From a virus: a stretch of DNA of 32,998 nucleotides. The DNA lies in the IMG/VR virus record IMGVR_UViG_3300049793_000109, positions 1-32,998 of that record, one strand, 5' to 3'. Within the stretch, counting starts at the first letter, position 1, and each line of letters opens with the position of its first letter. Positions 939 to 27,020 of this stretch are shown here, in pieces. A program made the translations under genes and the position numbers. The notes beneath the pieces are model-generated. The model searched no databases. It was given only the letters and a program-made list of their open reading frames with translations, and was not told the origin of the DNA.

Positions 939-1183
939 TCTGGTTTCAGTTCAGGTACGCGTCGGTCTTCACCAGCGAGTCGGACAACTGGATTGTCGGG
1001 CCGGTGTTTGACTCGATTCACGAAATGGCCGAGCACGCCGAATGGTGGATTGACGAGATCACCGTGGACGAAGCGAAGGACCGCATCAAGCGCGGTGAAG
1101 TGCTCGTGTTCCACGGCGACCGCGGGAGTCGCTACTTCGGCGCCCTGACTTCCGCCGACGTGCAGGAATTGCAGGCGGCATGA
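935..1183 (+). CDS. 82-residue acidic protein of unknown function
   Basis: Coupled to both neighbours by ATGA overlaps at 935 and 1180. The product begins with a mixed beta and aromatic stretch (IWFQFRYASVF) and continues with an acidic Trp-rich helix (AEHAEWWIDEITVDEAKDRI). It has no cysteine and no catalytic motif I recognise. It sits directly before the RecB/Cas4-like nuclease and is probably co-translated with it, so a small partner or modulator role is possible but unproven. Confidence 0.7.
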   Translation: MIWFQFRYASVFTSESDNWIVGPVFDSIHEMAEHAEWWIDEITVDEAKDRIKRGEVLVFHGDRGSRYFGALTSADVQELQAA

Positions 1184-2340
1184 GCGTCCCCAAGTCCTAC
1201 TACCGAGACCTCCCACCGATCCCGGAAGACGAACGGGGCGACGTGCAGATACCGGCAAAACTCTCGATGAGTTTTATGCAGGTGTTCTCACACTGTCCGC
1301 GTAGCGCGTTTCTCGACCTGAAGCACGGCGGCGGCGCCAGCTCAACCCCCATGATCCGCGGCTCTCTCGCGCACGAGGTCTTCGAGGAATTGACGAACAT
1401 GATGATCCTCAACGACGAGCCGCTGATGGAGACGGACGTCGCGAAGGAAGTCGTGTCAGCGGTCCTGGCCGACCACCCCGAGTGGGTACTGCCGCCGTCA
1501 GAAGTCGACCACGTTCGGATGATGGCCTACAACTGGACCCGCGCCTTCAAGTTCGACATCAGCGAAGTGTTCGGCGTCGAGCAGATGTGGACGCTGACCC
1601 TCCCGAACGGCATCGTGATCCGCGGCAAGCTCGACATGCTCCTGATCGGCAACGGAATGGCGAAGATCCGCGACTACAAGACCGCGCTCTCCATGATGTC
1701 TCAGTCCGATTGGGAGGAAGACTTTCAGCGCGGTTGCTACGAAGTGATCGTCGCCAAGGGTGAGACCGACGACGGCCAGAAGTTGCCGCAGGGGATTCAG
1801 ATGTTCGAGTCCGATGTGATCTACCCGCGGTATGTCTTTGACGACCGGCTCGGGACACGCACCGCCTACAGCGACATGCTGCAGGTGCAGGAGTTCTACG
1901 AGTACCTGATCGACCTGACCAACAAGATCGTTCACGCGTTCGAGACTTGGAAGTTCCCGGCGCTCCCGTCCGAGAAATACTGCAACCAATGCACGGCTCG
2001 AGCAGAGTGTCCCCTTGCAGAGAACCTGCGAGACGGCGCACAGCCCATCGAGAGCTACGAAGAGGCAGCCGAGGCAGCCGAGGACCGCTTGTTCCACCAG
2101 GCGAGCTCTAAGCGGCTCTCAGGAAAGCTGCGCAAGTGGATCGAGGACTACGGCCCAGTCCAGTACGGGAGCGGCCGTGAAATGGCGATCGTCCCAGACG
2201 AGAAGAACCGGACGGACTGGGACTCGCTTGTGCCGGCGATCGAGGCCAGCGTCGAGACCGGCGTGCCGTTCGACCGGGACGCGCACATCAAGCACACGGT
2301 CGGGACACGTATCGCTGACCGCAAGATCGAGAAGGAGTAG
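1180..2340 (+). CDS. Cas4/RecB-like PD-(D/E)XK nuclease with Fe-S cysteine set
   Basis: 386 residues. It shows the PD-(D/E)XK pattern of the RecB C-terminal/Cas4 nuclease group: a GSLAHEVFEE helix (His65 and nearby Glu), GKLDML (Asp152), IRDYKT (Asp165 and Lys167) and a downstream Gln/Tyr helix (QRGCYEVIVA). A lone Cys39 upstream plus Cys268, Cys271 and Cys277 downstream (CNQC then CPL) match the four-cysteine 4Fe-4S arrangement of Cas4 and AddB-type nucleases. The expected role is 5' or 3' DNA end processing in recombination or replication. The start overlaps the previous stop (ATGA). No cas1, cas2 or CRISPR array lies nearby, so this is a phage recombination nuclease rather than a CRISPR adaptation gene. 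Confidence 0.85.
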   Translation: MSVPKSYYRDLPPIPEDERGDVQIPAKLSMSFMQVFSHCPRSAFLDLKHGGGASSTPMIRGSLAHEVFEELTNMMILNDEPLMETDVAKEVVSAVLADHPEWVLPPSEVDHVRMMAYNWTRAFKFDISEVFGVEQMWTLTLPNGIVIRGKLDMLLIGNGMAKIRDYKTALSMMSQSDWEEDFQRGCYEVIVAKGETDDGQKLPQGIQMFESDVIYPRYVFDDRLGTRTAYSDMLQVQEFYEYLIDLTNKIVHAFETWKFPALPSEKYCNQCTARAECPLAENLRDGAQPIESYEEAAEAAEDRLFHQASSKRLSGKLRKWIEDYGPVQYGSGREMAIVPDEKNRTDWDSLVPAIEASVETGVPFDRDAHIKHTVGTRIADRKIEKE

Positions 2341-6163: not shown

Positions 6164-6396
6164 ACGGCAAACGAGGCGACGAATACACCTGCGCGTCATG
6201 CGGCGGCGTCTACAAGCGCGAGCAGGACGACGAGGCGGCGCTTGCGGAATGGAACACCGCCGACCCGCACAAGGAGTTCACCGGGGACGATCTTGACGGC
6301 GGTCAGCTTGAGATCGTTTGTCACGACTGCTGGCTGACCATAATGGGCCGAGCGAAGGCCGCAGGCTTTCCGGTCCCAGACACATTCGAGGGATGA
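6160..6396 (+). CDS. 78-residue zinc-finger-like protein
   Basis: I chose GTG 6160, which overlaps the previous stop and follows AAGGAG at 6146-6151. It has a CASCGG pair near residue 10 and a CHDC pair near residue 55, enough for one treble-clef or zinc-ribbon site. A helix (REQDDEAALAEWN) lies between. It is the last Cys-rich gene in a run of such genes and is directly coupled to the tyrosine recombinase, so a DNA-binding accessory such as an excision factor is possible but not shown. Confidence 0.7.
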   Translation: MNGKRGDEYTCASCGGVYKREQDDEAALAEWNTADPHKEFTGDDLDGGQLEIVCHDCWLTIMGRAKAAGFPVPDTFEG

Positions 6397-7358
6397 TGAG
6401 CGGAACAATCACCAAGCGCGGCAACTCATACGGCGCCAAGCTCACGATCGCCGGCACCCAGCTCTGGATCGGCACCTTCGCCGAGCACGACCACGCACGG
6501 GCCGCCATCGACCGCACGGTCCTTTCACCGCACCCGACGCTCACTCTCGACGACCTCGCGGAGTTCTGGGGGAAGCGGCCCGGGGTCAAGAGCGGCACCC
6601 ACGAGCACAACCTGCAGATGATCGGCCCCTTCCTGAAGCGGCACGGCTCGAGGCCGGCGGCGTCATTCATTCGGCTCGAGGCGGTCAAGTGGACGCAGGA
6701 CAACTTTCCATCGGCGCGGTTTCTCAAAGCCCTGTTCGGATACGGGCTCGAGATCGGCGTCCTGCCCGACAACCCATTCGACGGCCTGCGCGTGACCAAG
6801 AAGAAGAAGGCCAAGGTCGCGCCGTCAGACGAGCAGATCGCGGCCGCACTCACAGCCGCAGAGACCGTGTACGCGGACGACAGAGCGGAGTTCGTGAAGG
6901 ATCTGATCCAGACTGCGCGCGGAACGGGATTGAGGCTTACAGAGCTTGCCGAGCTTTCGCCTGAATCCGTGTACCGAGTAGAGGGCCGGATGAGACTGCT
7001 CGTAGTCGGCAAGGGCGACGTCGATCGCGTCGTTCCGGTCCCGCGCTCGGTTGTCCCAATTATCGAGCGGCGCATGGACGGCAAGTTGTTGTTCGAGTAC
7101 CGCGGCCGTCAGCTCACCCGCCAGCGGCTCCACAAGCTGATGGCGCCGGTGCGCGAAGAGGCCGGTCTGCCTGACATGAATTGGCACCTATTGCGTTACA
7201 AGTTTGCCAGCGATGCGGTCGACGCGGGAGTGCAGGACAGGGATTTGGCGCTCAGTCTTTGGGGACATCACGACACCCGGCTGCTTGTCGATGTGTACAG
7301 CCACCCAAACCGTGAAGCGGCGCTACGACGGATGGAAGTAGCCCTTGATCCGAAGTAA
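6393..7358 (+). CDS. int: Tyrosine recombinase (integrase family)
   Basis: 321 residues from ATG 6393; ATG 6396 is an equally good start, and both overlap the upstream TGA. The N-terminal strands (TITKRGNSYGAKLTI) resemble the arm-binding domain of phage integrases, followed by a core-binding helical domain (~45-135). The catalytic domain has Arg181 (GTGLRLTEL), Lys207 (VVGKGD), HLLR with His265 and Arg268, His292 (WGHH) and the nucleophile Tyr302 in VDVYSHP. All catalytic residues appear present. The enzyme would catalyse integration and excision, or resolve replicated genomes. It is short for an integrase, and a serine recombinase is encoded 1.5 kb away, so its substrate is uncertain. Confidence 0.9.
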   Translation: MMSGTITKRGNSYGAKLTIAGTQLWIGTFAEHDHARAAIDRTVLSPHPTLTLDDLAEFWGKRPGVKSGTHEHNLQMIGPFLKRHGSRPAASFIRLEAVKWTQDNFPSARFLKALFGYGLEIGVLPDNPFDGLRVTKKKKAKVAPSDEQIAAALTAAETVYADDRAEFVKDLIQTARGTGLRLTELAELSPESVYRVEGRMRLLVVGKGDVDRVVPVPRSVVPIIERRMDGKLLFEYRGRQLTRQRLHKLMAPVREEAGLPDMNWHLLRYKFASDAVDAGVQDRDLALSLWGHHDTRLLVDVYSHPNREAALRRMEVALDPK

Positions 7359-7887
7359 GCCAACATGCAAATGCGGCTGCGGCCAGTTCGTCCGATACGC
7401 GGAGAAGACAAACAACGCGACGGGCGCCGTTGCAGGATGGCCACGCGATTACGTCGCCGGCCACAACGGAGTATCCGGTCCTGCGATCCCCGAATGGGAC
7501 GTGGTGGATCGTGGTTTCAAGACCTCGTGTTGGATCTGGCGCAAAGCATTGTCCCCAGGCGGATATGGGAGAAAGCACGATGCCGAGAAAGACGTCTCGA
7601 TGATGGCTCACCGCTGGACTTACGTCAAATATGTTGGACCCATCCCCGAAGGACTCGAGCTTGACCACTTGTGCCGCCAACGCGATTGCGTGAACCCGGA
7701 CCACCTTGAGCCGGTGACGAGCGCCGAGAACAAGCGGCGCGGTCTGAAGGCGAAACTGACGGTTGACGACGTGCTCGCAATCCGCGCCCGCCCAGACGAA
7801 AAGCTGCAAACGCTTGCCGATGAGTTTGGCGTCGGGAAAGAAGCGATCCACAAGATCCGCCACCGGAAGCGGTGGAAAGATGTCTGA
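7345..7887 (+). CDS. HNH endonuclease with C-terminal helix-turn-helix
   Basis: 180 residues from a TTG start at 7345 that overlaps the recombinase by 14 bases; no ATG or GTG fits better. Cys8, Cys10 and Cys12 near the N-terminus (TCKCGCG) suggest a metal site. The HNH_3-like core is AHRW (His89), LELDHLC (Asp107, His108), Cys115 and VNPDHLEPVT (Asn117, His120). The C-terminal ~40 residues (LADEFGVGKEAIHKIRHRK) form a helix-turn-helix typical of phage HNH homing nucleases. It cuts DNA and may be a free-standing homing element or serve a phage role. No intron boundary is visible next to it. Confidence 0.88.
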   Translation: MIRSKPTCKCGCGQFVRYAEKTNNATGAVAGWPRDYVAGHNGVSGPAIPEWDVVDRGFKTSCWIWRKALSPGGYGRKHDAEKDVSMMAHRWTYVKYVGPIPEGLELDHLCRQRDCVNPDHLEPVTSAENKRRGLKAKLTVDDVLAIRARPDEKLQTLADEFGVGKEAIHKIRHRKRWKDV

Positions 7888-8401
7888 CGCCGACAGAATT
7901 AGTTTCTGGGGCGTAGACCCAGGATTCCGCCGTATCTCGATCGCCGCCATCGTTCCCGGCCGGTTCAAGGTGCGCTCCGGAGAAGTCGAGGAGGGCCTGC
8001 CCCGCGTCGAGACCCTTGTTCGACTGAGTGAAGTGACTCTCAAGCTCGCACGGGAGCTCTCCGAGTACGGCCAGCCACGGTCCATCATTGTTGAGCAGCC
8101 GTCCGGCAAGTTCATCAAGCCCGATCTCTACTACGCCGCCGCCGCCATGATGCTCGTGCTCGCTGACTTTGGTTTTGTCGACACGCTCCCGCCGGCGACG
8201 TGGAAAAAGCACGCGCTCGGCAAGGGCAACGCGAAGAAGCCGGAGATCATGGAGTGGGCGCGAACGATTGGCTACACCGGCAAGTCGCAGGATGAAGCTG
8301 ACGCGCTCGGAATAGCCCGCGCCGGCCAAGCAATGACCATCGTGATGGACGCGACCCCGATCCCTGCGGATCCCGTGGTGCAGGCGGAGCTTCCGTACTG
8401 A
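7880..8401 (+). CDS. RuvC-like Holliday junction resolvase
   Basis: 173 residues, starting at an ATG that overlaps the HNH stop by eight bases. It has the RNase H-fold signature of phage RuvC-like nucleases: WGVDPGF (Asp13), IIVEQP (Glu72) and a C-terminal SQDEADALGIARAG (Asp138, Glu139, Asp141). A basic WKKHALGKGNAKK segment sits where DNA contacts lie in this family. The expected reaction is metal-dependent cleavage of four-way DNA junctions to resolve recombination or packaging intermediates. It lies next to a recombinase, matching a DNA-processing role. Confidence 0.85.
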   Translation: MSDADRISFWGVDPGFRRISIAAIVPGRFKVRSGEVEEGLPRVETLVRLSEVTLKLARELSEYGQPRSIIVEQPSGKFIKPDLYYAAAAMMLVLADFGFVDTLPPATWKKHALGKGNAKKPEIMEWARTIGYTGKSQDEADALGIARAGQAMTIVMDATPIPADPVVQAELPY

Positions 8402-8586
8402 TGTCGGAGTTCCAACTTGTCGAGACCGTGATCGGTTATCGGATCTGGCCCGATCAGCCGGAGCGCGTGGACTGGCGGTTCTCGTTTTGTTACGGCCCTG
8501 AAATCTTCGATAATCGTGTTCTCGGGGGCAGATTCCGGCAAGTCGCGACGTTCGGCAACCCCACTCACCTAACGTTTCCAGGATGA
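8401..8586 (+). CDS. 61-residue protein of unknown function
   Basis: The ATG at 8401 shares its A with the resolvase stop, and the stop overlaps the next ATG at 8583. The product is beta-rich and aromatic (YRIWPDQPERVDWRFSF) with one Cys and no helix-forming stretch of note. No motif or membrane segment is visible. It is called because of exact operon spacing at both ends. Function unknown. Confidence 0.6.
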   Translation: MSEFQLVETVIGYRIWPDQPERVDWRFSFCYGPEIFDNRVLGGRFRQVATFGNPTHLTFPG

Positions 8587-8705
8587 GCGACTTCACCAGA
8601 CTGACCCGCGCCTACACCGAATATCTCAAGCTCGGTACTGAGATGATGCGGCGGTACGGCTTCATGGATCCGCGCGACTTCACCACGCAGACCTTCCCGG
8701 GCTAA
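8583..8705 (+). CDS. 40-residue protein of unknown function
   Basis: ATG at 8583 overlaps the previous TGA (ATGA), with AGG immediately upstream, and the frame ends with TAA at 8703-8705. It encodes a helical N-terminal part (FTRLTRAYTEYLKLGTEMMRR) and a Phe/Pro-rich end. It is the last + strand gene before the convergent serine recombinase. Its size gives little to assign; coding is supported by the coupled start and good helix-forming composition. Confidence 0.5.
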   Translation: MSDFTRLTRAYTEYLKLGTEMMRRYGFMDPRDFTTQTFPG

Positions 8706-8759
8706 GGCAAGTTCCCTTGGGTTGAGCGGCGCTAGGCCAAGTTTCACGGCTAAAACTTG
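8701..8759 (+). repeat. Imperfect direct repeat with inverted partner
   Basis: A 13-base sequence at 8701-8713 recurs at 8731-8743 with two mismatches (GCTAAGGCAAGTT and GCTAGGCCAAGTT). The CAAGTTT at 8738-8744 is also inverted as AAACTTG at 8753-8759 with an eight-base loop. The cluster lies between the end of the + strand operon and the 3' end of the serine recombinase. It could be an attachment or operator site; the sequence alone does not decide. Confidence 0.4.
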
Positions 8760-8777
8760 TCTTACCCTCAGAACCAC

Positions 8778-8807
8778 GAAAGCCCCCAACCGAAGTCAGA
8801 GGCTTTC
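8778..8807. terminator. Possible hairpin between convergent genes
   Basis: GAAAGCC at 8778-8784 pairs perfectly with GGCTTTC at 8801-8807 around a 16-base loop. It stands between two convergent transcription units (the + strand block ending at 8705 and the - strand recombinase ending at 8890), where a two-way terminator would be expected. There is no clean T-run after the stem on either strand, so the call is weak. Confidence 0.35.
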
Positions 8808-8889
8808 TGGATCGTGATCCGAGTACCAAACGGGCCAAAGACCCAACATGCACTACGAATGCCCGAAGAGTAACTATCGGCGCGGCGGG

Positions 8890-10275
8890 TTACCAGGCGA
8901 ACGGTTCGATCGACGCTGCAGTCCGTCCACGGCGCGGCAGATCGTCGGGTGCTTCGCCCTTCCAACAGACGTGCAGGCGATCCTCAACGGAGTCTCCCGG
9001 CCGTACGAACACGCAGTCGATTACGGACGAGAGGGCGGCCCGCATACCGGACACCGGCAGCTCTTCCCAGTCGTCGAAGTCAACGCCGGTCGCAATAGCC
9101 TGAGACGAAGCCAGACGCTTCCTCGCGCTCTCCACGGCGTCTGCACGGGTCTTTAGTCCAGCGGACCATTCAGAGACGGGAAGGACGCTCTGGACGTTCA
9201 GGTCGTCGCGGTAATCGGTGAGCAGTTGAGTCGTGTGGGCGACGGCGTCTCGAGCTTCAAGCACGTCGTCGTCGGTCGGGAGTGCGGCGATCCGTTCACG
9301 GGAGAGCGCGGTCACGTAGGACTCGATGGCCGGTGCCGTGATGTACTGACGCGTGGGGCATCGGCCGGCGGCGTGGATCCCACCGCAGCGGTACTGAGGC
9401 CGTCCGACTTTGCTCGTGCGCGTCATGGAGTATCTGCAACAGGAGCAGCGGACCAGGCCGACGAGCAGATATTGCGGCTCGACAGAGAACGCAGACTTGC
9501 GACCCTGCGCGAGCTCGAACTGCTCGGGGGTGACAAGCGGCTCATGCGCGTCCGCTTTCTTGAACTCACCGTGACGGACTTCACCGAGGTAAGTGCGGTT
9601 CGCGAGCATCTTCGCGACGGTCGCCGGGACGAATGATCCACGGCCGATGAAGTGGACCTTGGTGTTCAGGAAGTCACAAATTTCCTGCAAAGTGCGGGAC
9701 TTTCCTCGCATCACGAACACCGTTTCCAACAGTTCCGCCGTGGGGGCAGGTATAAGACGTCCATCGTGATTACGTAGATACCCGAACGGCGCACCACCAA
9801 TATGAACACTTCGATGAATAGCCCTCTCCCTCGCATTTGCCCAGCCGTCCGTGATTCGGTCGAGCTCGAATTCGGCAAGCGAGAGCATCATTCTTTGATG
9901 GAGTCGGCCCGCAGACGTCGGGACATCTGCCCCGTCTTGAACCGAGAAGAACACGCCGCCCGCGGTATCAATTTTCTGGATCGCGTCGATTGCGCCCACG
10001 AGGGATCTAGCGAAGCGATCAATCTTCGCCACGACGACACCCCCGGTATCGCCAAGCACTACCCGTCGCATCATCGTGTCGAAAGCCGGCCTGGTGAGCG
10101 TTCCGCCGGACTGATCGAGGTCTTCATGCCATTGGTCGATCACGACGCCTTTGCCGCCAGCCCAGCCCGCAATGATGTCGCGTTGCGTGTCGGGACTGAT
10201 GAACGAGGCGCCGCCGCGATCCCCAACACGGCTGACACGAATGTAGGCATCGAGCTTCACGCTACGTCGCCGCAT
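8890..10275 (-). CDS. Large serine recombinase (integrase/resolvase family)
   Basis: 461 residues. The N-terminal resolvase domain has YIRVSRVGDR (nucleophile Ser15), a DQSGGTLTRPAFDTMM region and VAKIDRFAR (Asp86, Arg87, Arg90). A recombinase domain follows (IGGAPFGYLRN near 159-169, then YLGEVRHGEF). A zinc ribbon (Cys277, Cys280, Cys297, Cys306) comes next, and a helical coiled-coil-like segment lies after ~330. This domain order matches serine integrases such as those of actinophages, which join attP and attB without supercoiling. It is transcribed against its neighbours. The start is ATG 10275; a GTG five codons in is an alternative. It looks intact. Confidence 0.92.
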   Translation of the reverse strand: MRRRSVKLDAYIRVSRVGDRGGASFISPDTQRDIIAGWAGGKGVVIDQWHEDLDQSGGTLTRPAFDTMMRRVVLGDTGGVVVAKIDRFARSLVGAIDAIQKIDTAGGVFFSVQDGADVPTSAGRLHQRMMLSLAEFELDRITDGWANARERAIHRSVHIGGAPFGYLRNHDGRLIPAPTAELLETVFVMRGKSRTLQEICDFLNTKVHFIGRGSFVPATVAKMLANRTYLGEVRHGEFKKADAHEPLVTPEQFELAQGRKSAFSVEPQYLLVGLVRCSCCRYSMTRTSKVGRPQYRCGGIHAAGRCPTRQYITAPAIESYVTALSRERIAALPTDDDVLEARDAVAHTTQLLTDYRDDLNVQSVLPVSEWSAGLKTRADAVESARKRLASSQAIATGVDFDDWEELPVSGMRAALSSVIDCVFVRPGDSVEDRLHVCWKGEAPDDLPRRGRTAASIEPFAW

Positions 10276-10368
10276 TCAGTAAGCAATTTTGTACCAAACC
10301 GTTCGATTTGCAAGAACCTGATCGGGTTATTGCAAAGCGAGCAGGACTAGCGCCGGACGCGCAGAAGG

Positions 10369-10452
10369 ATGTTCGATATGCCCTCGACATGGAAGACAAA
10401 ACGTAACCCTCGTCTCACGGGTTGTCAATACCGCGTCTGGACGAACGTATGA
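10369..10452 (+). CDS. Possible 27-residue leader peptide before the replication genes
   Basis: ATG at 10369 (or ATG 10378, nine bases after an AGAAGG at 10363-10368) opens a 27-codon frame whose TGA at 10450-10452 overlaps the ATG of the replication initiator (ATGA). The product is basic with several Trp and Arg (WKTKRNPRL). The overlap matches the coupling used throughout the window, which is why it is listed. In the same interval a second short frame (10308-10406, TTG start) is open, so the true coding state of 10276-10448 is unclear. Confidence 0.3.
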   Translation: MFDMPSTWKTKRNPRLTGCQYRVWTNV

Positions 10453-11330
10453 GCGGTCGCGTCGATCAACGGTTCGGCATGGTCCCGCTCTGGCTCTTGA
10501 AGTCGGGAGCATCGGACCGTGCGATCGCCTTCTACGCATGGCTGGCCGCGGAGTTTGTCGACGGAAGCGAGGCCCGAACAGACGAAGGGGTTGACTGGTT
10601 CGCGGAGGCAAGCGGACGGTCTGAGCCGACGGTCAAAAGGGCATTCGCAGAACTCGAGAAGCTGGGTGCAGTCACCCGCGTAAGGCGTCTCGGGCTCCCC
10701 AGCTCAACGCAAATACACCGGTCAGACCCGATCTCGCGTTCAGCTCAAAAAAGCGCTGGCGTTCAGATCCAATTCGATCCAGTAATTCCTACTGGTAAAG
10801 ACAGACAAAAGACTAAAGACGGAGATTCACAAGAAGGATCAGATCAGAACTCTGATCCATCGAAGACCAGTAGTTCCCCCAGCGCTGAAGGTGAGACGAA
10901 AGTAAGTTCCGCGCGCGAGGTCTTCGACTACTGGCAGCAGGTCATGGACAAACCACGGGCGAAGTTCACGCCGGAGCGGTCGAAGAAGATTTCAGCGCGG
11001 CTCGCCGAGGGCTACAGCGCCGAGGACTTGAAGCGCGCGATCGACGGCTGCGCGGCATCGGACTTTCACATGGGCCGCGACCCGATGAACGACGTCACGG
11101 CCGGCGGCAAGCGATACGACACGATCGGCCTGATCTTTCGCAACGGCGAAAAGCTCGAGGACTTCATGGCGACGGCGCCGGTCAAAAAGACCTACACCGC
11201 CGAACAGCTCCTCGAAGAGCGGAAGTATTTCCACCCCGAGGTTGAGGTCCCCGACATGCGGGACGAAGGCACCTGGCCGTTCGATGCCGAGTCTGACCGG
11301 ATCATGCGCGAATCGGGACTCGAGGGATGA
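10449..11330 (+). CDS. Replication initiator/replisome organiser with winged helix
   Basis: 293 residues from ATG 10449; a TTG at 10422 in the same frame is an alternative. Residues ~5-85 (FGMVPLWLLKSGASDRAIA through WFAEASGRSEPTVKRAFAEL) form a winged-helix DNA-binding domain of the phage replication O-protein or DnaD-like type. A polar, Ser/Asp/Lys-rich linker runs about 95-155. The C-terminal domain (VFDYWQQVMDKPRAKFT then ARLAEGYSAEDLKRAIDGC and YDTIGLIFRNGEKLEDFM) matches the conserved tail of phage replication organisers that recruit the helicase. The gene is coupled by ATGA to the DnaB-like helicase, which supports an origin-binding and loading role. Confidence 0.75.
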   Translation: MSGRVDQRFGMVPLWLLKSGASDRAIAFYAWLAAEFVDGSEARTDEGVDWFAEASGRSEPTVKRAFAELEKLGAVTRVRRLGLPSSTQIHRSDPISRSAQKSAGVQIQFDPVIPTGKDRQKTKDGDSQEGSDQNSDPSKTSSSPSAEGETKVSSAREVFDYWQQVMDKPRAKFTPERSKKISARLAEGYSAEDLKRAIDGCAASDFHMGRDPMNDVTAGGKRYDTIGLIFRNGEKLEDFMATAPVKKTYTAEQLLEERKYFHPEVEVPDMRDEGTWPFDAESDRIMRESGLEG

Positions 11331-18032: not shown

Positions 18033-18380
18033 TTAGGTACGAAAGCCGAGCTCTTCAATCCATCGGTCAGCCGTTCCCCAGGCACACTCCACGGCATCGG
18101 CGTAGAAGGTGACCGGCTTACTCGCGTCCTTGCGCAGCAGCTTGAGCATTTCACGCTTGCGCGGATCCTTCAGTTTGTAGGCGGCGTGCCAAGCCAGAAC
18201 GTCTGCGCGATCGTAGAACCGCACCGTGCCGTGCTCGAATTGCACCTTGGGGAAGTCAGCGCGGCGTTGCCACCGCGTCACCGTGTCCCGCGTTACCGGC
18301 TTGCCCCGTTTCGTTTTGATGTTGGCCTGAATGTCTCCGGGCGCCCATAGGTCAGTCATTGCGATTGATCCAGTCCTCAT
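18033..18380 (-). CDS. Helix-turn-helix DNA-binding protein, possible regulator or excision factor
   Basis: 115 residues from ATG 18380 or 108 from ATG 18359, which overlaps the stop of the upstream small gene. Residues ~11-62 (LWAPGDIQANI, then PVTRDTVTRWQRRADFPK, then VRFYDRADVLAWH) have the shape of an AlpA/MerR-like winged helix-turn-helix, as in excisionases and phage regulators. A second HTH-like stretch (FYADAVECAWGTADRWI) lies at the C-terminus. It is the distal gene of a leftward operon beside a repeat-rich control region, so a repressor, Cro-like or recombination directionality role is plausible. Confidence 0.7.
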   Translation of the reverse strand: MRTGSIAMTDLWAPGDIQANIKTKRGKPVTRDTVTRWQRRADFPKVQFEHGTVRFYDRADVLAWHAAYKLKDPRKREMLKLLRKDASKPVTFYADAVECAWGTADRWIEELGFRT

Positions 18381-18533: not shown

Positions 18534-18596
18534 CTTTGGCCTGTCTCTTCAGCGCGTGTAGGCCAGATCACGCTGACGGCCCGTAGACCGTTTCGA

Positions 18597-18776
18597 CTAC
18601 TTCGCGCAGGTGGCGATCAGGACGCCGTTCACGCGCTCTATGCCGTCCGGTGCTTGCTTGACCGCGCAAGGCACGGCGTCATCTTCTGCACTGATCACGT
18701 ACTGACGCGGGGAGCTGTGCAAGGCGAGTAGTGCGATGGCGCAAAGCACGAGGGCTAGAGCGAGGGTCTTTGTCAT
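18597..18776 (-). CDS. 59-residue exported or membrane-anchored small protein
   Basis: ATG at 18776 on the - strand follows GGAG at suitable spacing. Residues 4-19 are a hydrophobic segment (LALALVLCAIALLALH) after a short Lys-containing start, like a signal peptide or anchor. The remainder has two cysteines (in VPCAVK and ATCAK) and could form a disulfide. No lipobox at the expected place is convincing. It is the first gene of the leftward operon, directly next to the control region. Function unknown. Confidence 0.6.
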   Translation of the reverse strand: MTKTLALALVLCAIALLALHSSPRQYVISAEDDAVPCAVKQAPDGIERVNGVLIATCAK

Positions 18777-18887
18777 GGTTTCTCCGATCCTTGGGAGCGT
18801 CCGTCTAACGCTCACTTTGTATTGCAATGTTCGGCAAGCTATCACAAAAACATTCAACGTGCAGAAAAGATTGTGAACGTGTCGAAT

Positions 18888-19046
18888 CACCGTCCACGTT
18901 TCCGGACACGTAATCAGCGCGTGGACCGTTCACACTTGACCACGTATGACGGGAGGGAGAGCACGCGCTTTAGCTATCGCAGACAGCACGACTAGTGCGA
19001 TCACCGTCCACCGTGCCGGACAGCTTGCGCCTACGTGGACCGTTCA
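18888..19046 (+). repeat. Pair of 45-bp imperfect direct repeats with internal symmetry
   Basis: Copies at 18888-18932 and 19002-19046 have the same order and spacing: CACCGTCCAC, then CCGGACA starting 14 bases after the first base, and GTGGACCGTTCA as the end. The copies match at 32 of 45 positions by my count. GTCCAC and GTGGAC within each copy are inverted relative to each other. A partial third copy (CACCGTCC... GTGGAC) lies at 19263-19282. The arrangement resembles operator or iteron sites. Confidence 0.75.
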
Positions 19047-19172: not shown

Positions 19173-19246
19173 AGCGTATGAGAGCGTGCGTGTCAGCGTG
19201 CGTATCTGGCCTTGTATGGCCCTGCATATGGCCCAGTCAGCGGCCA
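19173..19246 (+). repeat. Short motifs at helical spacing
   Basis: AGCGT occurs at 19173, 19183 and 19195 (the last two within AGCGTGCGT), and TGGCC or CGGCC at 19207, 19217, 19229 and 19241. The steps are 10 to 12 bases, near one helical turn. Such phasing can mark binding sites for a protein array, but two short motifs in a GC-rich stretch can also arise by chance. Confidence 0.4.
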
Positions 19247-19550
19247 CGGGTAGCAAGATCAGCACCGTCCGCGTAGGTGGACACTCAACCCCTCGCATAT
19301 GTATGCGTTTGTGACCATGATGGGGACGTTCTCAAGTAGGAACGTAGCCCTCTGATCCGAGTCGATCCGGCCTCTCTCGCGTGACCCCCGGCACCCCCTC
19401 GCGAGCTCGGATGGGACCCACGCGTTCTGTGACTCCCACCCATAAGCACCCCAAACCCGAAATAATCCATCCTCCACATTGTGTTACATTTAGTCCCCGC
19501 CCGGAGAGGGCAACCGTGACGGCGGTGTAAGCAAGCGATCGGAGTGAGAA

Positions 19551-24832: not shown

Positions 24833-25198
24833 GCCAAGGACAGCAAGAGGGATTACGAACGCAGTTGGACGGTTCTGCCAGAGCCGGGTTTTGCAGAGGT
24901 TGACCCAGAGGTACTGGCAAATCACCTTTTGCAGCTCGAGGGCTATGCGACCTACCTTGGCTTCGCAACCACCTTCAGCCCAATTCGCGTGAAGCTCAAC
25001 ACGGGCCAGTACGTGACTAAGGGCTACAACTTCCGCGCCTTCTCGGTGCCCGCATTCACCGAGGAAGAGTTCGCCCGACTCGCGGGGCTCGACCTCGAAG
25101 AGCCGGCAGGACCGGAGTCGCCCGAGTCGCCGGACGTAGAGCCGGACCTCGATCTCGACGAAATCGACCGCGAACTCGTCGGTAGTGGAACTCAATAA
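24830..25198 (+). CDS. 122-residue protein of unknown function
   Basis: ATG 24830 has CGGAGG at 24819-24824. The protein starts with a charged helix, has a beta-rich middle (GYATYLGFATTFSPIRVKL) and an acidic, Pro/Asp-rich C-terminus (ESPDVEPDLDLDEIDREL). The next gene's GTG lies inside its last 14 bases. It is probably a head-region protein by position; no family recognised. Confidence 0.65.
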   Translation: MAKDSKRDYERSWTVLPEPGFAEVDPEVLANHLLQLEGYATYLGFATTFSPIRVKLNTGQYVTKGYNFRAFSVPAFTEEEFARLAGLDLEEPAGPESPESPDVEPDLDLDEIDRELVGSGTQ

Positions 25199-27020
25199 GC
25201 GCGACAAGGATCTGGTTGAGCTGGTCAAAGGCCGGTTCACCTTCGCCGACGGACGCATTCACCAGAAGTTCCGGACGCGCTGCGATGAGCAGTACGCGCT
25301 CTACAACAACTGGGACTCGTTGAAGCGGAATCTCGGGATGGCCGGCTCGGCCTCCGACCGCGAACGCATTCTCGGCGACGGCCAGAACATGTTCGGCGCG
25401 TCGATGTTCATCCCGTTCATCTACTCGACGATCGAGACCATCGTCCCGCGTATGGCAGCGAACGCGCCGACACCGCGCTTCCGATCATGCGGACCGCAGT
25501 ACGACGCGGCCACTCGTCGCATGCAGCTTCTCGTCCAGGCGCAGCTTCCGAAGATGAAGTACGGCCTGTCGATCCAGGACACGGCCAAGCACGGTCTGTT
25601 CCACGGCATCGGGATCCGGAAGAACACCTGGGTCAAGAACGTGCGCCAGACGAAGAAGCTCGTCGAAGTGGACGGCTCCTGGGGCGAAATGCCGATCAAC
25701 AAGACGCTCTACGACGACCCGATGAGCGGCGACGTCGATCCTCGCGACTTCATTTGGGACCCGTTCGGTTCGTCGATGCAGACGATCGAGTGGGCGATCC
25801 ACCGTCTCTGGCGCTCCAACGACTTCGTAAAGGCGAAGTTCGAGGCCGGCGACTGGGTGCTCCCCGAAGGCGTGACGATCGAGGACGTGCAGAACCGCCA
25901 CGGCGATCAGGAATACGCGAAGACGCACGAGGGACGCGCGCAGGCCCACGGCAGCCGCGACTCAATGACTCAGCAGTCGGGCAAGATCCACGAGGTCTGG
26001 GAATACCACGACGGCGACCGGATCATTGTCATGCTCGATCGTGAGATCCCCGTCTCAACGCGCCCGAACCCGCATTGGCACGGCGAGATCCCGTTCACGA
26101 TCTACCGCCCGGTCTCGCTCCCCGGCGAGTTTGTCGGCCGTTCCGTCGTCGACGCGCTTGAAGACCTTCAGATCGAGCTCAACACGCTCCGAGCACAGCG
26201 CCGCGACGGTGCATCGCAGGAACTTGAGTCGCCGTACGCGTACAAGATCGGCTCAGTTGACCCGGCAAACCTTCGATGGGGCCGCGGCTTCGCCATTCCG
26301 GTCGACGGCAACCCCGACGACGCGTTCAAACAGCTTCGCGTCAATCCCGTCTCCGGCTCGAGCTATCAGGAAGAGAACGGCCTGAAGGACGACATCCAGC
26401 GCACCGCCGGAGTTCTCGACATGGCCGGCGGTTCGAGCACGACCGAGACCGCGACCGGCGCCCAGCTCGTCTACAACGAGGCGAACCAGCGGATCGCGAA
26501 CATGGTCAAGCGGCTCGAAGAAGAGACGATCACCGACGACTTCGGCTTCTTCATTCAGATGAACCAGCAGCACATTCGCACGCGCGCCATTCAGCAGCCG
26601 GTGCCAGCGCCGCCTCCCGCCCCCGGAGAGCCGGATGCGCGCTGGACATGGAAAGAGTTCACCGCCGAAGACCTTTCGGGCGACATGCTCCCCGGGGTCG
26701 AATCAGGTTCGATCGCCGCCGACAACACTCCGCAGATGCGCAACGACGTTCAAATGTGGGCGCAGATGTTTATGAACCCGTACGTGGACAAGATCAAGGT
26801 CACCGAAAAGATGCTCGAGTGTTTGGGCGTCAACGATCCGACGAGCTACATGAGCAACGAGCAGATGATCCCAGCGGGCGTCCCCGGCCAGATGGGCGCA
26901 GCGCTTGAGGCTCAGAACGTTGACCCGGCGATGGTCCAGCAGGCCCACGACGAGGCGATGGCGCCGCACGACGGCTCGATGCAGGATCAGCAGGCGCAAG
27001 CACCGGCAGGGGTCGCGTAA
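25185..27020 (+). CDS. Portal protein (P22-like family)
   Basis: 611 residues from GTG 25185. The N-terminal region (RFTFADGRIHQKFRTRCDEQYALYNNWDSL) and SMFIPFIYSTIETIVPRMAANAPTPRF are typical of P22-like portals; a long central part holds EVWEYHDGDRIIVMLDR and HGEIPFTIYRPVSLPGEFVGRSVVDALEDLQIELNTLR, then a C-terminal region with Ala/Gln/Met-rich tail. The portal forms the dodecameric ring where DNA enters and exits the head. The stop is followed with a one-base overlap by the next gene. Confidence 0.85.
   Translation: MELNKRDKDLVELVKGRFTFADGRIHQKFRTRCDEQYALYNNWDSLKRNLGMAGSASDRERILGDGQNMFGASMFIPFIYSTIETIVPRMAANAPTPRFRSCGPQYDAATRRMQLLVQAQLPKMKYGLSIQDTAKHGLFHGIGIRKNTWVKNVRQTKKLVEVDGSWGEMPINKTLYDDPMSGDVDPRDFIWDPFGSSMQTIEWAIHRLWRSNDFVKAKFEAGDWVLPEGVTIEDVQNRHGDQEYAKTHEGRAQAHGSRDSMTQQSGKIHEVWEYHDGDRIIVMLDREIPVSTRPNPHWHGEIPFTIYRPVSLPGEFVGRSVVDALEDLQIELNTLRAQRRDGASQELESPYAYKIGSVDPANLRWGRGFAIPVDGNPDDAFKQLRVNPVSGSSYQEENGLKDDIQRTAGVLDMAGGSSTTETATGAQLVYNEANQRIANMVKRLEEETITDDFGFFIQMNQQHIRTRAIQQPVPAPPPAPGEPDARWTWKEFTAEDLSGDMLPGVESGSIAADNTPQMRNDVQMWAQMFMNPYVDKIKVTEKMLECLGVNDPTSYMSNEQMIPAGVPGQMGAALEAQNVDPAMVQQAHDEAMAPHDGSMQDQQAQAPAGVA

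Follow-up and report, generated by a model that had tools for sequence, protein, structure and literature searches.

The 33.0-kb IMG/VR virus record analysed here over its whole length (referred to as the window), which derives from an uncultured soil phage, carries intact genes for two recombinases of unrelated catalytic classes, a tyrosine recombinase and a large serine recombinase, and both are found in the same order and orientation in the relative IMGVR_UViG_3300046747_000088 (G012; 44.4 kb, portal 64% identical). The reading put forward for this pair, which in our judgement stands about evenly poised between right and wrong, is that the phage maintains two distinct systems of site-specific integration, one based on an inherited tyrosine integrase and the other on an added serine integrase with a nearby attP.

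Gene content and setting of the window

The gene content of the window includes the large terminase subunit, portal and major capsid protein, as well as a DnaB helicase and a replication initiation protein. The contig is part of a phage with a podovirus-like portal, which is probably temperate to judge by the recombinases and an excisionase-like gene. The features discussed below are compiled in Table 1. Among 50,697 phage records, the sole match of the portal (25185-27020) was to Escherichia phage PTXU04 (25% over half its length); this match aside, the structural lineage is known here from metagenome contigs only. The tyrosine recombinase had no match in the same 50,697 records, and single-sequence scans of IMG/VR with the tyrosine recombinase, the serine recombinase or the terminase as query returned nothing. 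As to the host, alignment of the portal against GTDB contigs gave no relative, and a search of 400 Chloroflexota genomes yielded a single marginal match.

Table 1. Coordinates of the early genes, the candidate regulatory or attachment element and the excisionase-like gene of the window
Feature	Coordinates	Strand	Basis and remarks
PD-(D/E)XK exonuclease, syntenic marker before the tyrosine recombinase	1180..2340	+	PF12705; same order in G012, G019, G023
Tyrosine recombinase, 321 aa, probable integrase	6393..7358	+	PF00589, catalytic residues, predicted N-terminal fold
HNH endonuclease	7345..7887	+	PF13392; between tyrosine recombinase and RuvC-like gene
RuvC-like Holliday junction resolvase	7880..8401	+	phrog_159
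Large serine recombinase (integrase), 461 aa	8890..10275	-	PF00239 + PF07508 + PF13408
46-bp imperfect dyad, candidate attP or operator/origin element	10299..10344		Between serine gene and replication initiation gene
Replication initiation protein, divergent from serine gene	10422..11330	+	phrog_16167; 39% identical in G012
Small DNA-binding protein, possible excisionase/directionality factor	18033..18380	-	Weak phrog_66 and MerR-like matches

The tyrosine recombinase

The gene starts with an ATG that overlaps the stop codon of the upstream gene as ATGA, and its product matches PF00589 with 53.9 bits (cut-off 27.1). The R-K-H-R-H/W-Y set that marks membership of the family lies complete within this domain (R181, K207, H265, R268, H292, Y302), with all six residues invariant in G012. 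Its earlier description as a short enzyme is slightly misleading, the 321 residues including an N-terminal extra domain in front of the core-binding and catalytic domains.

Tyrosine integrases of the lambda/Tn916 (heterobivalent) type possess an N-terminal three-stranded arm-binding domain, and their attP has core and arm-type sites. The strand-strand-strand-helix layout of the arm-binding domain belongs to lambda- and Tn916-type integrases and not to Xer resolvases, and directional integrases characteristically have an arm-binding domain of the AP2-like kind. Prediction of the whole window enzyme gave a poor fold (mean pLDDT 52), so that the N-terminus alone was used. Residues 1-44 are predicted as E-E-E-H (three strands and a helix, pLDDT about 74-84) and superpose on AP2 domains with a probability of 0.97-0.99 at 0.8-1.0 Å over 39 columns, the E-values being weak (about 0.6-1); the AP2 match given by the relative G019 is weak as well (E 0.04). 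This predicted AP2-like arm-binding domain tentatively suggests that the enzyme is an integrase of the lambda/Tn916 type and not a dimer resolvase. With the XerC and XerD equivalog models, whose cut-offs are about 330 bits, it scores 46-47 bits, so the enzyme does not classify as XerC or XerD, and this result, together with the predicted domain, weakens the proposal of the initial annotation that one of the two recombinases, here the tyrosine enzyme, might serve genome dimer resolution.

The gene is embedded in the early operon, with no noncoding attP beside it. It had been placed next to a RuvC-like resolvase; the phrog_159 gene is indeed present, but the HNH gene lies between the two. This HNH gene has no counterpart at the corresponding place in G012. 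The resolvase position has seen a non-homologous swap, the RuvC-like gene of the window being replaced in G012 by a RusA-like one (PF05866; L069:12579-13070 (-)).

The serine recombinase

Large serine recombinases combine a Resolvase domain carrying the catalytic serine with Recombinase and zinc-ribbon domains. The 461-residue enzyme has all three, each of the Pfam models scoring above its cut-off, and R13, Ser15 and D86/R87 are present and conserved in G012, as are the four zinc-ribbon cysteines (277, 280, 297 and 306). Small serine resolvases and invertases (gamma-delta, Gin/Cin) are proteins of about 180-200 aa with a catalytic domain and a short helix-turn-helix; such an identity was considered and ruled out by the length of the enzyme and by its Recombinase and zinc-ribbon domains. 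The best PDB match is TP901-1 integrase, and A118 integrase aligns over 92% of the sequence with about 22% identity. Domain cut-offs and residue sets thus bear out, for both enzymes, what had been stated at the outset, namely that two catalytically complete recombinases of unrelated classes are encoded on opposite strands.

The curated models closest to the serine enzyme are those of recombinases from elements, XisF and CcrB among them, and even though it scores far below their cut-offs, this affinity would fit an alternative in which the tyrosine enzyme is the sole integrase and the serine enzyme was captured for another job, for instance the exclusion of a rival element, DNA inversion or its own mobility. 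The position of the gene on the opposite strand and its absence from more distant relatives (see below) point in the same direction. This alternative is nonetheless judged unlikely: a search for borders of an inserted element revealed no convincing attL/attR duplication flanking the gene, no cargo genes lie alongside, and the gene has occupied one place, with its catalytic residues all kept, since before the split from G012. Scans for sigma-70 promoters and terminators near the gene were empty. The serine recombinase looks like an integrase added later, and in this respect the early suggestion of a captured module stands, but a recent capture does not fit, the gene having been in place before the window and G012 diverged.

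Relatives and conservation of the pair

Relatives were gathered by portal alignment, which yielded 36 in IMG/VR. Only one close relative, G012, includes the early region; the other close one, G001 (10.6 kb), holds late genes only. Compared gene by gene, G012 is circularly permuted and collinear with the window. The shared order runs from the exonuclease over small genes, the tyrosine recombinase and the Holliday junction resolvase to the serine recombinase on the other strand, and continues with the replication initiator, DnaB, a methyltransferase, the excisionase-like gene (32% identity at the protein level) and the late genes. A chimeric assembly of two phages, which had been named as a possible flaw, is therefore excluded by an independent contig in which the genes flanking each recombinase on either side follow the same order; GC content is even across the two-recombinase region, nothing was found in favour of a chimera, and its probability is put close to nil.

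Protein identities between the window and G012 amount to 50% for the tyrosine and 40% for the serine recombinase, compared with 50% for DnaB, 49% for the exonuclease and 39% for RepO. Neither recombinase gene contains internal stops in the comparison, and the third codon position varies most. Because the divergence matches that of the neighbours, stops are lacking, and the catalytic residues and zinc-ribbon cysteines are invariant, the pair is very probably older than the split between the window and G012 and has been kept under selection. Consistent mutation of one enzyme in relatives, which would have spoken against two working recombinases, is not seen, both being intact and conserved in G012.

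Among the records of about 44 kb or more, both enzymes are present in G012, the tyrosine enzyme only in G019 and G023, and neither in G002, G007, G025 and G027; the shorter G024 (18.6 kb) has the tyrosine enzyme without the serine enzyme. No relative's record contains the serine enzyme without the tyrosine enzyme. A comparison with one-recombinase relatives, as the initial annotation had proposed, is thus provided by G019 and G023, in which the tyrosine enzyme is kept and the serine enzyme undetected. In both, this exonuclease gene likewise precedes the tyrosine gene and shares its strand, and the N-terminus of its product aligns with that of the window enzyme. Since the distant relatives hold the tyrosine enzyme only or neither, two of them with the gene after the same exonuclease, the simplest reading is that the tyrosine enzyme is ancestral and the serine enzyme was gained before the window/G012 split, an order read from few records, some of them possibly fragments, with the pair present in two genomes only.

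Two further features of the relatives were observed. In G019 (L072, about 7467-8016), a long array of short GC-rich repeats, which reads as MGRRTGRR..., is located downstream of the tyrosine recombinase. G012 carries four hairpins shaped like a tRNA T-arm (reverse-complement 22, 43448, 43850 and 44149; L069), with a GGTTCRATYCC loop and a 5-bp stem, all on a single strand in the region of leftward genes, and ARAGORN calls a tRNA-Arg in this hairpin region (L069:493-582); the window has no counterpart of these hairpins.

Candidate attachment sites and noncoding repeats

The attP of serine integrases is about 40-50 bp long, takes the form of an imperfect dyad and is recombined with attB. When all centres in the window were scanned for dyads (half-lengths 15, 20 and 23 were tried), the 46-bp element just upstream of the serine gene, with 17/22 positions and its centre at 10321, ranked first of 65,904 centres. 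The best 46-bp dyad of G012 (16/22) falls in the same intergenic region, from the serine gene to the replication initiator, and this intergenic dyad ranks 355th and 21st at the two shorter half-lengths (15 and 20). Uniform placement of dyads would make such a coincidence between the window and G012 very unlikely; dyads favour intergenic DNA, however, and the chance of a shared place is roughly 1 in 15 by our own estimate from some 15 intergenic regions. Controls with phiC31, TP901-1, A118 and Utz gave a mixed outcome, which makes dyad rank suggestive and not diagnostic. In phiC31, a dyad 60 bp upstream of int, at what we take to be the position of attP, is visible with a rank of only about 45th. 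The window dyad could represent attP, an operator or a portion of the origin. For the adjacent replication initiation gene, the ATG at 10449 is a likelier start than 10422.

A further dyad, centred at 8748 on the downstream side of the serine gene, is weaker; its possible role as a paired att site was dismissed because G012 has no counterpart. No tRNA was found in the window, which leaves an attP of the tRNA type without support, and the tRNA search of the window together with the searches of GTDB contigs and of the 400 Chloroflexota genomes disclosed no attP/attB pair, lysogen, host or repressor.

Three copies of a 23-bp repeat, ATCACCGTCCACG... (18886-18908, 19000-19022 and 19261-19283), lie in the noncoding stretch that separates the excisionase-like gene from the late operon, and two of them sit in 47-bp imperfect repeats bearing a dyad; the repeats could be integrase arm sites, operators or a packaging sequence. 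An apparently noncoding block before the late genes (19239-19463), 64% conserved with G012 and ending in ACTCCCACCCATAAGCACC, may be a signal for packaging or a promoter. A small leftward ORF is followed directly downstream by a sequence (18535-18598 (-)) that weakly matches the type II hammerhead ribozyme, with 31.7 bits against a gathering value of 37 and an E-value of 0.009 for the window as a whole. Its closing stem is short and its fold no better than those of shuffles (z -1.15), so that the match may be degenerate or due to chance.

A proposed role for the two recombinases

If two integration systems are indeed kept, the tyrosine recombinase would be the inherited integrase of the wider lineage, with its predicted lambda/Tn916-like layout and its place downstream of the exonuclease in the early operon. 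The serine recombinase would have been gained in a shared ancestor of the window phage and its nearest relative. It would have entered between the replication initiation gene and that end of the early operon which carries the Holliday junction resolvase, and would be read from the other strand. Its most likely target would be a short attP in the adjoining noncoding DNA, for which the dyad of Table 1 is the best candidate. Both enzymes would have been retained since, most simply for two alternative attachment sites or hosts. Points that speak against this reading are the setting of the tyrosine gene in an operon with no noncoding attP next to it, the failure of the searches to reveal an attP/attB pair, lysogen, host or repressor, and the phiC31 control, in which attP was not the top-ranking dyad. 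A stricter version, a linked dual-integration system under selection in which a choice of two sites or hosts is offered, or one enzyme integrates and the other excises, as opposed to simple redundancy, is considered decidedly improbable.

One may also envisage that the serine enzyme is now the sole integrase and that the tyrosine enzyme performs a lytic job, such as resolving genome multimers with the Holliday junction resolvase, or acts as a DNA-binding regulator. This reading has a modest chance of being correct: the tyrosine gene is translationally coupled in the early operon and has RuvC- or RusA-like resolvases in its neighbourhood, the serine gene is a solitary one on the other strand adjoining noncoding DNA with a candidate attP, and in SPbeta integration is the task of the serine enzyme SprA, the repressor being a protein with the tyrosine-recombinase fold (PMC10516654). 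However, G019 and G023 keep the tyrosine enzyme without a detectable serine enzyme, and the predicted arm-binding domain together with the complete catalytic set is more in keeping with an integrase than with a resolvase or a repressor.

Comparison with known systems

The combination of one integrase of each class is a rare kind already known in a few other phages. Gordonia phage Utz (KU998248) encodes an Int-Y (gp31) and an Int-S (gp33), both apparently intact, within about 4 kb (PMC5559632), and resembles the window phage in this respect; in Utz, an unrelated phage, both genes share a strand and lie near the immunity repressor, at the end of the tail genes, and Int-Y has no N-terminal extension that aligns with that of the window enzyme. 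For Staphylococcus aureus phage TEM126, known here from the paper, a tyrosine and a serine integrase were likewise reported, their roles being called unclear by the authors (PMC6507118). An intact gene of each class within a single genome, the trait that defines the kind of phage to which Utz and TEM126 belong, is found in both the window and G012. Bacillus phage SPbeta pairs the large serine integrase SprA with the tyrosine-recombinase-fold proteins YopP/YopR (PMC8612738, PMC10516654), but YopR/MrpR is a repressor that has lost the catalytic residues, whereas the window tyrosine enzyme keeps all of them. The serine integrases of Listeria phage A118 and Lactococcus phage TP901-1 are of similar length to the window serine enzyme, yet the annotation of these phages lists no second, tyrosine integrase.

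The window pair offers a tractable test case for why one phage should hold two unrelated integrases, a question that the cultured cases raise as well; both enzymes and the 46-bp dyad are, moreover, possible tools for genome insertion. What the window phage adds to the known examples is a pair conserved across a deep split, on opposite strands and with the tyrosine gene inside an early operon. The pair has outlasted a divergence that left neighbouring early proteins about 40-50% identical, with both enzymes intact, which argues against a passing accident.
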